From positions 42,350-106,349 of the forward strand of contig OMPR01000007.1 in assembly GCA_900313015.1 (NCBI GenBank): a stretch of 64,000 bases of DNA, in the 5' to 3' direction. The first letter of the stretch is position 1, and the number at the start of each line of letters is the position of its first letter. The DNA is from Rhodobacteraceae bacterium EL53. Lineage in GTDB: Bacteria > Pseudomonadota > Alphaproteobacteria > Rhodobacterales > Rhodobacteraceae. Positions 4,590 through 59,496 of the stretch are shown one piece after another. The notes beneath the pieces are model-generated. The model made no database searches. It was not told where the DNA came from and was given only the letters and a program-made list of their open reading frames with translations. The position numbers and the translations under genes were made by a program.

Positions 4590-5442
4590 AGCGTTTCCGT
4601 GCCATCTCCTCAGAGATCATCAGGTCATGGCTATTCTTGATTGAACATAGATATTCAGCACATATCATTCACATCTACCTTATTTATGCTCAGCGTCGTT
4701 TTGTCTGCTAAGCCGCATTATTAAAGCAGGATTGAGATTATCGAGACAATTCAAGTCTCTGGGCTTTCAGCCGTTAGCTTGTTTGGGATCTCCTGCCTAG
4801 AGCTCGCTCCCAACAGTGGTCCCCCCCTATGTTGAGTAATGAGGAGGAGTTTAGTAGGCGCCTAAGCGACCTAAGCCCGAAGAGACTGTTTAAGCTTTTG
4901 CAGGTTGAAATTTAGTAGAGTCAGGTACGTCGAAGGCAGACACCACCAGACAATCGGTGTGACGGAACAAATCAATTTTCGCGGAAAGTAGAACTAGGTC
5001 GTTGAAAATGCCATTGGTTCAATCCCAAAGGAGAGTGTGGAACGGGTGTGAAACAACTCAAATAACTGAAGCGGTTACCAAAAGGAGTAGGAGCTACTCT
5101 GACGGGTTGTGCAGGGTTTAACACTGGACAAGCTGACCTTGAAGGAGGCCGCAACGGGAAGATCGCCCTTCACCCGATTTGTGCAACAAAGCCGTTACAG
5201 AGGGTAGCTCTGATGTCCGTTGTTTTTCCTGAATTTGGGACTTTCTCTATTATGCTCAAATATCTCTTTCAAAAGAGAGAGTGCACCCTTTGCAATTTTC
5301 ACGGGCGAATTTCCTGATGATGTAGGGAAGCGCTTACGTTTCAAGAAAGCACATGGCATCTGAAACTTGAGCTGAGCTCATGTAGGTCGAATTTTTTCAC
5401 AATTGTCAGCGCGTGGCTCTTTCTTGTTTCTGGCGACATAAC
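4590..5442. other. Gene-free stretch with IS debris
   Basis: No credible gene. A 28-codon frame from 4829 (MLSNEEEFSRRLSDLSPKRLFK) has the look of a linker from a larger enzyme but is too short to assign. An isolated IS terminal repeat lies at 5163-5193. The last 200 bases should contain the promoter for the oxygenase that follows. Confidence 0.5.
5163..5193 (-). repeat. Solitary IS903-type terminal inverted repeat
   Basis: On the minus strand this reads GGCTTTGTTGCACAAATC onwards and matches the repeat at 1302-1334 with one difference over about 30 bases. No transposase and no opposite end are found to its left within the empty region, so it is a relic left after loss of the element. Confidence 0.65.
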
Positions 5443-6456
5443 ATGGAGATCGCCTTGCCTGATTCAGATTTGACCCAACTTGCAGATAGCTTGCGTGCGA
5501 CGCGACAGTCTTTTGATAGCATACCAGTGATCGATATTGCGTCTTTGGTGGATGGTCGCGATCCCTTTGGTGTTGCCAAAGAAATCCGGTGGGCTTTGTC
5601 CAATGCCGGTTTCATGTATGTGAAGAACCATGGTGTTCCCTCCAGCGTCGTTGAGGCTGCGTTTGCGCAGGCAATGGCGTTTTTCGATCTGCCCAACGAC
5701 GTCAAGATGGTGCTGCATGTCGGCAACTCTGGCGTTGCAATGCGGGGGTACATCGAAATATTCGGGGAAAATACTGACCCCGCCAAAACGAAAGACTTGA
5801 AAGAGTGCTTTGATATTGGGCCTGAAACGCCGGGTTATGAGGTGCCGTTTTTTGGGGCCAACCAATGGCCAGATCAGCTACCTGCCTTTCAACCTGCAAT
5901 CTATGCCTACCATGAGGAAATGAAAAAACTTTCCCTGATCCTGCTGCGGGGGATCGCGCTGAGCCTGGAATTGCCCCCCGAATTCTTTACCTCGAAAATG
6001 TTGAACCCGATCAGTATTCAGCGACTGCTGCATTATCCACCACAGGCTGGCAAAATTGATGAAAGCGTGATGGGGATAGGGGCGCACACGGATTACGGCA
6101 ACTTGACCATTCTTGCGCAGGATGATGTCGGCGGGCTGCAGGTCATGAACCGCGATGGGGTATGGGTACACGGACCGCCGATTCCGGGAACCTTTGTGAT
6201 CAATATCGGGGACCTGATTCAACGGCTGACCAATGACGTCTACCTTGCAAATCTTCACCGGGTTGTGAACACCAGCGGGCGCGAACGCTATTCAATCCCG
6301 TTTTTCATTGATGCGGACTATGATGCGGAATTTGCCCCAGTCCCAAGCTGCATCAGCGCTGAGAACCCAGTCCGTTATGATCCGGTAACATGTGGTCGGC
6401 ACAAGTTTGGTCGGTTCCTTGATAGTTTCCCGCATTTGGCCGCAACATTCGGCTAA
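5443..6456 (+). CDS. Isopenicillin N synthase-like 2-oxoglutarate/Fe(II) oxygenase
   Basis: A 337-residue soluble non-haem iron oxygenase. The N-terminal DIOX_N region (IPVIDIASLVDG, residues about 28-39, through GFMYVKNHGVP) is followed by the jelly-roll core: GAHTDYGNLTIL supplies the first His and Asp iron ligands, NLHRVVN the distal His, and RYSIPFF the Arg-x-Ser that holds 2-oxoglutarate. The start at MEIALPDS is preferred to an ATG ten codons upstream because the extra residues are atypical, though the ribosome binding site is weak. Bacterial members act on small molecules and are usually poorly characterised; the substrate is unknown. A second family member is at 37810-38784. Confidence 0.85.
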   Translation: MEIALPDSDLTQLADSLRATRQSFDSIPVIDIASLVDGRDPFGVAKEIRWALSNAGFMYVKNHGVPSSVVEAAFAQAMAFFDLPNDVKMVLHVGNSGVAMRGYIEIFGENTDPAKTKDLKECFDIGPETPGYEVPFFGANQWPDQLPAFQPAIYAYHEEMKKLSLILLRGIALSLELPPEFFTSKMLNPISIQRLLHYPPQAGKIDESVMGIGAHTDYGNLTILAQDDVGGLQVMNRDGVWVHGPPIPGTFVINIGDLIQRLTNDVYLANLHRVVNTSGRERYSIPFFIDADYDAEFAPVPSCISAENPVRYDPVTCGRHKFGRFLDSFPHLAATFG

Positions 6457-9706: not shown

Positions 9707-10618
9707 ATGACAACAACCATCACTTCTGAACCTCGGCCCCTTGCGGGAATGACGTGGATGCTCGCAGCTGGGTTTAGCTTTGTTGTGATGACCGCACTGG
9801 TTAAATCCCTCGGGACAAGTCTACATCCGATACAGTCGTCGTTTCTGCGCTATGCGTTGGGGTTGGTATTTGTGCTGCCTGCCATTCGCCCATTGTTGAA
9901 TGCAAAACTTACGCCCAGACATTGGGCGCTGTTCAGTATCCGGGGGGCGCTTCACTCGGTTGGAGTCATGCTGTGGTTCTTTGCCATGACGCAAATTCCG
10001 TTGGCCGAAGTGACTGCTATGAATTACCTGACCCCGGTTTATGTGACATTGGGGGCGGTCATATTTTTGGGAGAGAAACTGGCTTTGCGCCGGATCTCAG
10101 CGGTGATTGTCGCAGTAATAGGCGCCGCGATTATTCTGCGCCCGGGGTTTCGTGAGATTTCATCAGGCCACCTCGCTATGCTTGGGACCGCTTTTCTGCT
10201 TGGGGGGTCTTATTTACTGGCCAAGGTCACAGTTGATGAGGTCAGCCCAGCTGTGGTTCTGACCATGTTGTCGGTGTGGGTAACGATTGCACTGACCCCG
10301 TTTGCCATCGCGGTTTGGACCCCACCCAGTTGGTCGGATATCGGGGTGCTTTTTGTTGTTGCTTGCTTTGCGACCGCTGGGCATTATTTCATGACATTAG
10401 CGTTGCAAGCCGCGCCTGTGGCGGTCACCCAACCGGTCACGTTTTTACAGCTGATCTGGGCTACGCTGCTCGGGGCTTTGGTTTTCGACGAGGGGGTCGA
10501 TATCTGGGTCGTGGCAGGCGGGAGCCTGATCTTGGCTTCGGTAAGTTTCATCACGTGGCGTGAAGCAGTCCTAAAGCGCAGCGCGATCACGCCGCACAGT
10601 ATTGCGCCTAAGCTCTGA
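9707..10618 (+). CDS. DMT-superfamily (EamA) transporter
   Basis: A 303-residue membrane protein with ten predicted helices in two EamA repeats: residues about 15-135 and 150-285. LAEVTAMNYLTPVYVTLGAVIFLGEKL and QPVTFLQLIWATLLGALVFDEG are the conserved ends of the two repeats. ATG 9707 starts MTTTITSEPRPL; an earlier in-frame start at 9671 would overlap the region just after lysE and give an odd leader. The substrate is unknown. The gene ends 15 bases before a hairpin (10633-10650) that separates it from the bet cluster. Confidence 0.85.
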   Translation: MTTTITSEPRPLAGMTWMLAAGFSFVVMTALVKSLGTSLHPIQSSFLRYALGLVFVLPAIRPLLNAKLTPRHWALFSIRGALHSVGVMLWFFAMTQIPLAEVTAMNYLTPVYVTLGAVIFLGEKLALRRISAVIVAVIGAAIILRPGFREISSGHLAMLGTAFLLGGSYLLAKVTVDEVSPAVVLTMLSVWVTIALTPFAIAVWTPPSWSDIGVLFVVACFATAGHYFMTLALQAAPVAVTQPVTFLQLIWATLLGALVFDEGVDIWVVAGGSLILASVSFITWREAVLKRSAITPHSIAPKL

Positions 10619-10632
10619 AATGAACGTTAGGA

Positions 10633-10650
10633 AGACCTGATTAGGTCTTT
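10633..10650 (+). terminator. Short hairpin terminator after the DMT transporter
   Basis: AGACCTGATTAGGTCT is a perfect six-base-pair stem with a four-base loop, followed by TT. The short T run makes this a weak intrinsic terminator. It separates the DMT gene from the betI operator that begins immediately after. Confidence 0.45.
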
Positions 10651-10668
10651 GATTGACGAGTCAATAAA
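10649..10668. promoter_or_regulatory. BetI-type operator in front of betI-betC-betA
   Basis: TTGATTGACGAGTCAATAA contains the perfect palindrome ATTGAC-GA-GTCAAT at 10652-10665. It resembles known BetI sites, which are A+T-rich palindromes with ATTGA and TCAAT arms, and lies 44 bases before the betI start. The same palindrome with another two-base centre occurs at 47737-47750 before the ABC transporter, and both are followed by a similar A-rich stretch and AACCC. I infer repression by BetI, relieved by choline. Confidence 0.75.
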
Positions 10669-10708
10669 AAACCCCTAGCGTTTATGGAATGTAATCGCGG
10701 AGGGCGGA

Positions 10709-11281
10709 ATGCCAAAACTTGGAATGGAGCCAATTCGGCGGGATGCGATCGTACGTGCGACGATTGCTGAGCTGGGTGTAACCAAGTCTCTGGATGTAAC
10801 CGTCAGCCAAATTGCAAAACGCGCCGGGATATCCAGCGCGCTTGCGCATCATTACTTTGGCGGCAAAGATCAGATCTTTCTGGCTGCTATGCGACGGATC
10901 TTGTCTGATTTCGGCGCCGAAACGCGGGAAGAACTGAGCACAGCGCCGAAACACGAGCGGGCGCAGGCCATTATCCGTGCTTGTTTTGCGCCATCCTGTT
11001 TTACCCCCGATGTCGTTGCTGCTTGGATGACCTTTTACGTTCTGGCCCAAACGAATGATGACGCCTTGCGCCTTTGGCAGATCTATCAGGCGCGGATGCG
11101 CTCCAATCTGGTGAACGCCTTGCGCCCGCTGGTCGTGGATCCGGTTGAGAATGCCGAGAACATGATCGCACTGATCGATGGGCTTTATATTCGCGCAGCC
11201 CTTGGCGCGCCCGAAGAGCCCCAACTTGCCGTAAATCACGCGCTGCGTGTGTTGAATACTATGATCGAGGCCGGACAATGA
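10709..11281 (+). CDS. betI: Choline-responsive TetR-family repressor BetI
   Basis: A 190-residue TetR regulator. The N-terminal helix-turn-helix reads PIRRDAIVRATIAELGVTKSLDVTVSQIAKRAGISSALAHHYFGGKDQIF, matching BetI (MPKLGMEPIRR at the start is diagnostic). The C-terminal domain includes FAPSCFTPDVVAAWMTFYVLAQ and IDGLYIRAAL. BetI represses the glycine betaine synthesis genes and its own gene, and choline lifts repression. The stop overlaps the betC start by four bases (ATGA), showing translational coupling. GGAGGGCGGA lies just upstream of the ATG. Confidence 0.95.
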   Translation: MPKLGMEPIRRDAIVRATIAELGVTKSLDVTVSQIAKRAGISSALAHHYFGGKDQIFLAAMRRILSDFGAETREELSTAPKHERAQAIIRACFAPSCFTPDVVAAWMTFYVLAQTNDDALRLWQIYQARMRSNLVNALRPLVVDPVENAENMIALIDGLYIRAALGAPEEPQLAVNHALRVLNTMIEAGQ

Positions 11282-57377: not shown

Positions 57378-57846
57378 GGTGTGCCTTTCCTCGGTTGCGC
57401 AGATTGGAGAGGCTGCGTTGGGGTGAGGGAAAGCTTACCCCCTCAAGCGAGGTTGAGCTCAAGCGGAAAGATTTTGGAGAGAGCGTAACGCTCATCGGGG
57501 GTGGATGGGTTGGATGTGAGTGCAGGTTTGCGCAGAAAGCGGAGTTCGCAAAGTTCAGCGAACGGCTCATTGCAGTCATTGCCTAACTCGTCGGATGCTG
57601 CAGCGCGGCTTCACCAAAACAGACGGTTGAGCATCGTGCAGCATTCTTTATCGTTGGATAACTGCAACGCGGGCCAAACCCGCATTATGCTCAATCAGAT
57701 TTAACTGGTGGTTTTGGTGCATAATGCTTTTAAACAAGTCATTTAAAAGCTCCGGTGTTCGCTGCTGGCGCTTGACGCCAGGTTCTGGTTGCTGAAAACC
57801 AGTGTCACACGAGGTCGGGGCGACTGAGTGCCGCCCCAAAGTCTGG
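57378..57846. other. Hairpin-rich intergenic region
   Basis: No credible gene. Between 57610 and 57840 a run of perfect inverted repeats occurs: GCGGG-CCAAA-CCCGC (57669-57683), GCATTATGC with GCATAATGC (57682-57690 and 57719-57727), GCTTTTAAA-7-TTTAAAAGC (57726-57750), CTGGCG-CTTGA-CGCCAG (57765-57781), CTGGTT-6-AACCAG (57785-57802) and GGGGCG-9-CGCCCC (57817-57837). The last one lies just after the sulfatase stop and may act as its terminator. Confidence 0.7.
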
Positions 57847-59496
57847 TTAGTTTCCGGTTGGCAGGCTCAGCTTGAAGCCGTCTTTTTCCAACTGATCACG
57901 AACCGTAGTGAAACGATGATACTGGCTGAGAGTTATCGGGCCCGAATAGGATTCGCTCTGTACCGGACGCGGTGGGTACTCGATATAGGTCTTCACGACC
58001 CGCTCAACTTCCCCCATCAATGTCGGCATGGTCCAGGTATTTTCACGACCTGTGGTCATAAAGATGTCGTACCGCTCCATAGGATCTTCCCAAAGGTTGA
58101 ACACCTGCGGCACCGTCGCAACGTATGCCTCTGCGCCGCGCCATCCCAGCTCAGCAGCAGGCGCTTCGGAACCGGCACGTGCGCCATTGTCACCACGTAT
58201 GTTGAAAACGGCCTTCCATTCGTTGACCCGCACCGCGCCGGGGGAAAGCTCGTTCTCGGTAAAGTACGCCCATGCGTTGCGTTGGGGATCGGCCTCGCCG
58301 AACAGGACTGGCGCCATGTCGATGCTGTCAAAGATCGTCGGGTGACCTTCGCGGTCTTCGGTGGGCAGTGGCACACCCGCGAGATTTGCAAAAGGGGCCA
58401 TCAGGTCTGTGCCACCTGTGATGTCGCTCGATTTGGAGTTGGGTGCGATCTTTCCTGTCCATTTGGCGAAGAAGGGCACGCGATATGCGCCTTCGCGGTC
58501 GGTACCCTTGGTACCACGAAAGGGGGTCATGCCAGCGTCAGGATGCACATCCTGCCACGCGCCATTGTCGACAGTGTAGACGATCAATGTGTTTTCCCCG
58601 ATGCCGAGTTCTTCAACCTTGTCGAGGATTTGACCGGTGTGAAAATCAAGTTCGACGACCTTGTCACCGTACTTGTTCTTTACTGCCGACTTACCCACGA
58701 AGTCGGGCGACGGGAGGTTCGGCTGGTGGTTCGCAGCCCAGTTGACAGACATGAAGAACGGTTGGTCCAATCCAGCGAGACGCTCAAGCTCGGCAACGGC
58801 TTTTTCAGCACCAACCTTGTCCAGAGCCGCCAGATCAGCGGTCTTCATGTCCTCGATTTTCAGCACTTCGTTAGCAGCTTTTCCAGCGACCCCTTCGAAG
58901 ACACCCGTTGTGTTCGCCTTGTAGAATGCCCTTTGATCATCTGACATCTGTACGTTCCAATCGTCCAGCGCATATGTGTAGGCGTTCAAGTGATAAAGAA
59001 ACGTGTTCTCCATTTTGTCATATCCATGTGCGGTTGGCATCGCATAGTCGGCTTCGCCGAGGTGCCATTTTCCCATGAAGTAGGTGTTATAGTCAGCCTG
59101 TTTTAAAACAGACGCGAGCGTCCATTCTGCGGCTGGGAGGCCACCGCCCTGCCGCTGAAAGGCCACGGTCGTCATACCAGATCGATTTGGGAACCTTCCG
59201 GTTTGCATCGCCGCACGACCAGGAGTGCAGGAGGACTGAGCGTAGAAATCCGTAAACATCATTCCCGCCTTGGCCAACTGGTCAAGGTTGGGCGTGTCCA
59301 TGCCGCGTGCTGCGCCACCATGGTAGGCGCCAAGGTCCCAATAACCAGTGTCATCAGACACAATCCGGATGATGTTGGGCTTACTTCCGTAAGTGGAAAG
59401 CGTTGTGGCATCAAAGTTCTCAGCCAAAGCCGAAGTAGCCAATGGGAAAGACAAGGCTATCATAGCGGCGGCCACCGCTTTTGTAGTTCGGATCAT
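57847..59496 (-). CDS. Secreted arylsulfatase (formylglycine type)
   Basis: A 549-residue sulfatase with a signal peptide (MIRTTKAVAAAMIALSFPLATSALAE). NIIRIVSDDTGYWDLGAYHGGAARGMDTPNLDQLAKAGMMFTDFYAQSSCTPGRAAMQTGRFPNRSG holds the Asp-Asp metal site and Cys-Thr-Pro-Gly-Arg core; the Cys must become formylglycine. YFMGKWHLGEADYA and VYTVDNGAWQDVHPDAGMTPFRGTKGTDREGAYRVPFFAKWTGKI are typical of arylsulfatases. It would release sulfate from external sulfate esters, such as algal polysaccharide pieces or phenols. AGGAGG precedes ATG. It stands alone and its modifier enzyme is not in the window. Confidence 0.92.
   Translation of the reverse strand: MIRTTKAVAAAMIALSFPLATSALAENFDATTLSTYGSKPNIIRIVSDDTGYWDLGAYHGGAARGMDTPNLDQLAKAGMMFTDFYAQSSCTPGRAAMQTGRFPNRSGMTTVAFQRQGGGLPAAEWTLASVLKQADYNTYFMGKWHLGEADYAMPTAHGYDKMENTFLYHLNAYTYALDDWNVQMSDDQRAFYKANTTGVFEGVAGKAANEVLKIEDMKTADLAALDKVGAEKAVAELERLAGLDQPFFMSVNWAANHQPNLPSPDFVGKSAVKNKYGDKVVELDFHTGQILDKVEELGIGENTLIVYTVDNGAWQDVHPDAGMTPFRGTKGTDREGAYRVPFFAKWTGKIAPNSKSSDITGGTDLMAPFANLAGVPLPTEDREGHPTIFDSIDMAPVLFGEADPQRNAWAYFTENELSPGAVRVNEWKAVFNIRGDNGARAGSEAPAAELGWRGAEAYVATVPQVFNLWEDPMERYDIFMTTGRENTWTMPTLMGEVERVVKTYIEYPPRPVQSESYSGPITLSQYHRFTTVRDQLEKDGFKLSLPTGN

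Follow-up and report, generated by a model that had tools for sequence, protein, structure and literature searches.

Integrons are the textbook platform for the site-specific exchange of gene cassettes, and their cassettes are joined at attC sites through the core GTTRRRY. Gene modules are also carried from plasmid to plasmid by the pdif/Xer modules of Acinetobacter, which have short sites with a 6-bp centre, and Xer/dif sites have conserved arms on both sides of their core. The repeats known as ERIC, RIME and BIME/REP are dispersed, mostly intergenic, about 100–150 bp long and mosaic.

The window studied here (the whole stretch of DNA that was analysed, 64,000 nucleotides at G000:C17:42350-106349 within the 4.86-Mb genome of Rhodobacteraceae bacterium EL53) contains an element of about 113 bp that can be set beside each of these. 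Like ERIC, RIME and BIME/REP it is dispersed, mostly intergenic, similar in size and mosaic, but it has no family-wide fold and it bounds exchanged gene blocks exactly. Like the pdif/Xer modules it is associated with gene modules that moved between plasmids at 6-bp-centred sites, but it is far longer and has no conserved second arm past its hexamer. With integrons it shares an arrangement of one or more genes plus one terminal site per cassette, sites that point the same way, exact joining at a short core, and a block order that varies between replicons. In our reading, the element in the window is a worn attachment site from a Rhodobacteraceae gene-cassette system that resembles integrons without being one, and the adjoining stretch 57682-57846 is the 3' region of a sulfatase gene, comprising the 3' hairpin of that gene and stems specific to the locus; to this joint reading we assign a probability of about 0.8.

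The locus and its palindromes

The palindrome cluster lies between two minus-strand genes, a sulfatase gene (PF00884; 57847-59496), which precedes the element, and a gene for a VOC/glyoxalase protein (PF00903; 57000-57377), which follows it, with a gyrase-B-type (ParE-like) gene beyond the latter. The nearest relatives of the sulfatase were Ruegeria proteins (91–92% identity), and two Ruegeria loci, L021 and L024, have a gene for a HAD-family protein (PF12710) directly after that for the sulfatase. This gene is missing in the window, where the hairpin stretch and the element occupy its place (57378-57846); in L023 the gene after the sulfatase is unrelated to the HAD-family gene of the other two loci. 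A synteny search with the VOC protein returned no homologues at 1e-20 in 20 relatives, and neither tRNA or tmRNA genes nor, in a promoter scan, promoters were found. The proposal that the palindromes are remnants of an IS end gained no support, as no transposase was present among the four neighbouring proteins scanned.

The preliminary description reported a tandem array of perfect inverted repeats at 57610-57840. Perfect arms are present there in greater number than expected by chance: four pairs had arms of at least 6 and spacers of at most 10 nucleotides (shuffle mean 0.45), and four had arms of at least 8 and spacers of at most 100 (shuffle mean 0.30), with none of 300 shuffles reaching either count. 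The excess was weaker for arms of at least 6 with spacers of at most 30 (5/300 shuffles had as many) and for arms of at least 7 with spacers of at most 60 (11/300). The repeats are thus real, but no single unit is repeated in tandem, and the relevant unit extends beyond the described interval, to 57563; the cluster is a composite of unrelated halves.

One arm pair, 57595-57602/57637-57644 (ATGCTGCA / TGCAGCAT, spanning 57595..57644), lies inside the element and falls just outside the interval as first described; its arms are kept across the element family, mostly without compensatory change. A second pair, 57612-57620/57711-57719 (CACCAAAAC / GTTTTGGTG), has one arm in the element and one out of it, and a third, imperfect pair (57627-57639/57682-57694) matches at 85%. 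Outside the element are the arms 57682-57690/57719-57727 (GCATTATGC / GCATAATGC); GCATTATGC takes part in two alternative pairings, as had been noted earlier. These are followed by three hairpins, at 57726-57734/57742-57750 (GCTTTTAAA / TTTAAAAGC), at 57765-57781 (CTGGCG / CGCCAG) and at 57785-57802 (6-bp arms), the middle one of which is the sole plus-strand terminator-like site returned by the scan (shuffle mean 0.7). The element part was found in 85 of 149 family genomes; the hairpins of 57726-57802 had no further copy in their own genome. Short matches to 57745-57794 in three other genomes (21–44 bp, E 0.002–0.007) were taken as chance, and the window stretch had no match when searched against plasmids. 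Most of the striking palindromes around the element are those of the sulfatase 3' region and the locus-specific stems, and they are not part of the mechanism proposed below.

A family of elements ending in GGGCCG

Used as queries, the window stretch and then its copies returned 24 and 28 matches in the same genome (E <= 1), and a sequence-only model (R1) built from 11 copies, that of the window included, returned 40 matches in this genome at E <= 0.01. With stricter filters, R1 matched elements at 1e-3 in the 85 genomes already mentioned; the remaining 64 of 149 had no match at this threshold, a point against a family-wide cassette system. Cutting 52 elements at their conserved end, with an exact GGGCCG as the selection criterion, gave a consensus of about 113 bp and a second model (R2). 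Although absent from the 52 rows that built R2, the window copy matched it over model positions 2-113 of 113 (56.9 bits, E 1.4e-16) at 57563-57674 on the minus strand, and was the only element that R2 found in the 64-kb window; the R1 match, to a model that includes this copy, extends over 57524-57677.

An exact GGGCCG was found in 52 of 56 elements inspected, against a background of about 0.0006 per base and strand in loci L183-L258. Among R2 matches at or above L251:20022 (E 6e-8) there were 90 in 48 loci, or 86 distinct ones after removal of four duplicates, and 71 of the 86 end in an exact GGGCCG. The match reaches the hexamer in 75 (71 exact, 4 variant) and stops short, without an exact GGGCCG, in the other 11, five of which read GGGCTG. 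The hexamer is therefore not universal, which counts against the proposed cassette system; our odds for it are unchanged by this shortfall, because the junction evidence given below does not rest on the hexamer count, and the co-occurrence of elements and recombinase homologues points in the opposite direction. Past the hexamer, conservation falls to at most 0.9 bits per position over 25 nt (46 elements, rows aligned on the hexamer).

In the window the end hexamer (57563-57568, minus strand) reads GAGCCG, one change from GGGCCG. Beyond it is a head module (57524-57562, minus strand) that is 94% identical over 48 bp to the best copy in the same genome. Many copies of this genome, including those on C2, C3, C5, C7 and C8, have this module (TTCGC...ACTTTGC...TTTCTGCGC) after the hexamer, and it also matches sites where the remainder of the element is absent; in Tritonibacter, the recombinase block is followed by a similar head (L269:7126). 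Copies within the genome show mosaic flanks. Element matches were also seen on plasmid unnamed4 of Qingshengfaniella alkalisoli (NZ_CP042265.1), with the same coordinates on G133:C5.

Read by eye from the consensus, the interior of the element contains the motif AAnGKCnGS three times, with the leftmost copy in inverted orientation. The variable positions of the motif do not covary, which suggests that these motifs may serve as protein-binding sites and not in base pairing. A coding origin of the element was rejected, as 41–46 of 70 copies, depending on frame, contain a stop codon.

Folding and the sulfatase 3' region

Folding of the palindromic interval surpassed that of shuffled sequence on one strand, the minus (z -5.0, 0/200 shuffles as good), but hardly on the plus strand (z -1.6, 13/200). 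Taken separately, 57722-57846 gave z -3.9 on the minus strand and -1.1 on the plus strand, and the element of the window gave -3.6 and -2.9. Such values are what would be expected if the whole cluster were a structured non-coding RNA or 3'-UTR on the minus strand downstream of the sulfatase, and the preliminary description had considered an RNA with many stem-loops. We consider this unlikely. No excess folding was found in ten other copies of the element (z -1.7 to +1.5). RNAalifold proposed 20 pairs for 11 copies, 4 of them changed on both sides, with an unfavourable covariation term of +0.53, and no pairs at all for 70 copies. A named structure that pairs the inverted motifs had covariation at the level of chance (156/500 shuffles as high) and more pairs than slid versions of itself, as is expected of inverted motifs. 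Mutual information between columns pointed for the most part to couplings over short range, and inspection by eye revealed no helix. With other copies folding no better than shuffled sequence and covariation at chance, a structured RNA was rejected for the conserved element. Rfam had no match in the window at the gathering threshold, and a permissive scan of 57400-58000 returned matches at chance level only.

What does agree with an RNA is confined to the hairpin 57817-57837, and the strand-specific stems adjoin the sulfatase gene and include this hairpin. It is a GC hairpin on the minus strand a few nucleotides past the sulfatase stop codon (z -2.5, mononucleotide shuffles). When the 50 nt past the stop were folded in the same way in 16 of 80 sulfatase loci, mostly alphaproteobacterial, 14 of the 16 had a post-stop hairpin (z -2.6 to -5.5) with a sequence different from that of the window, and two, L074 and L095, had none. 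In being a GC hairpin after the stop codon that recurs in relatives it resembles gene-end hairpins and intrinsic terminators, but unlike the latter it has no detected U tract, and a test for intrinsic terminators gave no minus-strand match. Given the missing U tract, the hairpin is just as likely to stabilise the 3' end of the mRNA, or to belong to a factor-dependent end, as to act as a terminator.

Gene blocks joined exactly at the hexamer

Two gene blocks recur in different plasmid contexts with GGGCCG at their edges. The first, of about 6,650 bp, encodes a LysR regulator, a sugar ABC transporter and a metallophosphoesterase, and was found in seven contexts in Phaeobacter inhibens, on plasmids typed rep_cluster_377, 636 and 558. 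Its copies are 98–99.9% alike between two GGGCCG hexamers and differ outside them, save for the resemblance between elements; by our own reading there are six different neighbours on either side. At the right edge, 20 of 21 pairwise alignments stop within 3 nt of the hexamer, and the remaining pair also shares the next block and stops at the hexamer of that block. At the left edge 15 of 21 begin within 5 nt of the hexamer, five begin (BLAST) 9–47 nt upstream of it, in a stretch of similarity between the two elements, and in one pair the preceding block is shared in part.

The second block, of about 1,780 bp, consists of genes for a tyrosine recombinase and an alpha/beta hydrolase. Both of its edges lie at GGGCCG in pP92_b, pP92_a, pP54_a, strain M623 and Tritonibacter scottomollicae, and across these five contexts each edge has four different neighbours. 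In pP92_b it stands to the left of the first block, in pP92_a and pP54_a to the right. The Tritonibacter copy has an IS110 transposase gene inside it, and the recombinase is absent from the gene table there. Starting from the same left hexamer, recombinase blocks in Sulfitobacter THAF37 and in pP30_b show an 81–82% match to the second block. In the genome of the window, where the before-and-after comparison took in 8 of 40 copies, three copies (C15a, C15b and C1a) have 100% identity as far as GGGCCG and 55–59% past it; C15b and C11a, on the other hand, are 82% alike before the hexamer and 88% past it.

Recombination sites were among the early suggestions for the palindromes, and this one fits 57563-57674, as the end hexamer of the element is the joint between blocks in related plasmids. 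The same observations could be put down to passive, dispersed intergenic repeats of the ERIC, RIME or BIME kind, with RecA moving blocks between copies. The many copies and their mosaic flanks agree with this, and some segments common to Phaeobacter plasmids do end away from GGGCCG (for example at L251 9147, L255 10433 and L250 18431). Breakpoints left by RecA should, however, scatter over the roughly 113 bp, yet all distinct junctions of the two blocks are at the hexamer, and the elements at the junctions differ upstream of it, with the caveat that BLAST extends 5 of the 20 first-block pairs not sharing the preceding gene upstream by the distances given above. The drop in conservation past the hexamer, on which the rows were aligned, and the lack of folding in the family also argue against passive repeats, which we regard as improbable. 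Against joining by a dedicated cassette system, in turn, stand the segments that end off the hexamer, the second block of strain P30, which is truncated, and two Paracoccus blocks for which no second context was found.

Arrays of co-oriented elements

The elements cluster, one or a few genes apart, and close neighbours mostly point the same way. Among 20 genomes all 16 pairs spaced 0.7–3 kb apart were co-oriented (13/13 without G038, which had been seen previously), as were 23 of 25 pairs in ten other genomes, some of which were picked because clusters had already been seen there, and 4 of 4 in the genome of the window. The tendency fades with distance: co-oriented pairs at 3–10 kb numbered 12/18, 10/14 and 6/8, and pairs farther apart had no steady orientation tendency. 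Pairs less than 700 nt apart in the genome of the window are in opposite orientation (0/3 the same), which does not favour a cassette system. Exchange between direct repeats by RecA, as in the passive-repeat explanation, would also leave co-oriented copies.

Gene direction was rejected as the cause of co-orientation, as flanking genes point either way; the arrangements around 79 elements fell into four classes of 24, 20, 16 and 13, with genes called by a crude rule under which 11 of the 79 elements overlapped a called ORF. Tandem duplication was likewise set aside: in the six loci examined, 808 bp in L216 and short repeats were the only duplicated parts of the intervals. The L216 segment, which includes an element, is present at 5057-5864 and 10000-10807 with 95.5% identity.

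Several other genes were seen within or beside these arrays. Proteins with a TniQ domain are encoded within two of them (L213:9378-11252 and L250:16725-18284). A retron St85-type reverse transcriptase with its effector is found on a plasmid of P. inhibens M631 (L252:7973-9927), and an abortive-infection gene on pP54_a (L256:7661-8491). The retron and abortive-infection genes occupy variable stretches to the left of an element, and genes for phage defence may be among the cassette payload.

A small tyrosine recombinase beside the hexamer

The cassette-borne recombinase is a protein of 210 aa that matches PF00589 at 61.6 bits and falls far below the cut-offs for XerC, XerD and integron integrases; it had no match among PDB sequences. 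The residues R, K, HxxR, H and Y, which are catalytic in tyrosine recombinases, are kept in nine of ten aligned recombinases, L264 lacking H and Y. The protein thus resembles small Xer/FimB-like tyrosine recombinases in its PF00589 domain and residues of the R..K..HxxR..H..Y type, but differs from them in its distance from the XerC/XerD cut-offs and in being encoded near a GGGCCG within a cassette.

Homologues at 1e-15 were found in 52 of 149 family genomes, namely in 45 of the 85 that had element matches and in 7 of the other 64 (Fisher 5e-8, uncorrected for relatedness and pooling both recombinase clades); the seven genomes with a homologue but no element match are a point against the cassette system. 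The spacing between gene and hexamer, determined for a subset of these homologues, is nearly fixed. Of 20 homologues with an identity of 77% or more, 18 have GGGCCG at a distance of 31–35 nt from the end of the gene, the two exceptions reading GGGCCT and, for the closest recombinase in the genome of the window, AAGCCG, a change that likewise weighs against the cassette system. In most of this close clade an inverted repeat of the type GGGCCGnC...GnCGGCCC was seen by eye between hexamer and gene. Among homologues with at most 74% identity, 0 of 25 had GGGCCG at 31–35 nt (one has it 22 nt away), and GGCGAACGGC was found at that place in 11 of 25, or 18 of 25 when close variants are included. Many of the homologues L279-L303 (57–69% identity) are preceded by an inverted repeat that starts with GGCGAACGGC or a variant instead of GGGCCG. 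The recombinases of the GGCGAACGGC type possibly represent a second, parallel cassette system.

From these sequence relationships, the 210-aa recombinase is likely to catalyse the joining at GGGCCG, although the near-fixed spacing could instead be the mark of one successful cassette lineage and not of catalysis. The spacing also bears on whether the element is the end of a one-ended transposon (rolling-circle, ISCR/IS91-like) or of one like Tn7/TniQ, with GGGCCG as a preferred target. Conservation on one side of the hexamer only is what such an end would give, and TniQ proteins do occur in two arrays that were scanned in part. As both edges of the blocks are exact, and the gene tied to the hexamer is that of a tyrosine recombinase, we hold a transposon end to be decidedly improbable.

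A proposed cassette system outside the integrons

The family of elements, the exact junctions of two blocks, the co-orientation of neighbouring elements, and the spacing and co-occurrence of the recombinase are direct observations. In the system that we propose from them, a cassette would begin at a GGGCCG, contain one or a few genes and close with an element whose end is the following GGGCCG. Recombination at the hexamer would insert, remove and reorder cassettes, presumably by way of a circular intermediate, and would leave co-oriented elements between unrelated genes. The catalyst would be the 210-aa tyrosine recombinase, whose own gene is part of a cassette and adjoins a GGGCCG. The copy in the window may once have bounded the sulfatase block. 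With its changed hexamer, and as the sole copy in 64 kb, it is probably inactive and a relic at a cassette edge between the sulfatase and VOC genes; its changed hexamer and its isolation also count against the system.

Such an array of sites might instead be a true integron attC array without an integrase. The geometry is the same, with a terminal site per cassette, co-oriented sites and exact junctions, but no integron integrase (TIGR02249) was above the cut-off in any of 12 genomes, the hexamer at the junctions of the two blocks is GGGCCG and not GTTRRRY, and the genes in element arrays run in both directions. An attC-like fold made by pairing the inverted motifs was rejected, their covariation being at chance, and unlike attC the element has no conserved single-strand fold. 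With no integron integrase found, another core and no conserved hairpin, the system falls outside the integrons, and we regard an attC array as extremely improbable. On balance we lean towards a hitherto unrecognised Rhodobacteraceae cassette system independent of integrons, with sites of about 113 bp that are read as duplex DNA, GGGCCG as the joint, a small cassette-borne tyrosine recombinase and a sister clade of recombinases that uses a different, GGCGAACGGC-like motif. With the same inclination, and as part of the same reading, we suggest that it assembles and reshuffles accessory genes, possibly including the retron and abortive-infection genes, both within chromosomes and plasmids and from one genus to another.

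Titles and the openings of abstracts, in a literature from which subscription journals and preprints were mostly absent, contained no description of such a system or element, and the portions of PMC3607928 and PMC9426580 that were retrieved concern topics unrelated to either. In the PLSDB gene tables examined, which cover coding genes only, nothing is recorded at most of these sites, and the element would give annotators a marker for the edges of blocks. The named plasmids and exact junctions make cassette exchange testable. A second cassette platform in a large marine family, distinct in its site and probably also in its enzyme, would, if true, help to explain how genes are swapped among plasmids, and the genes swapped in this way would be those for transport and regulation and perhaps for defence against phage.
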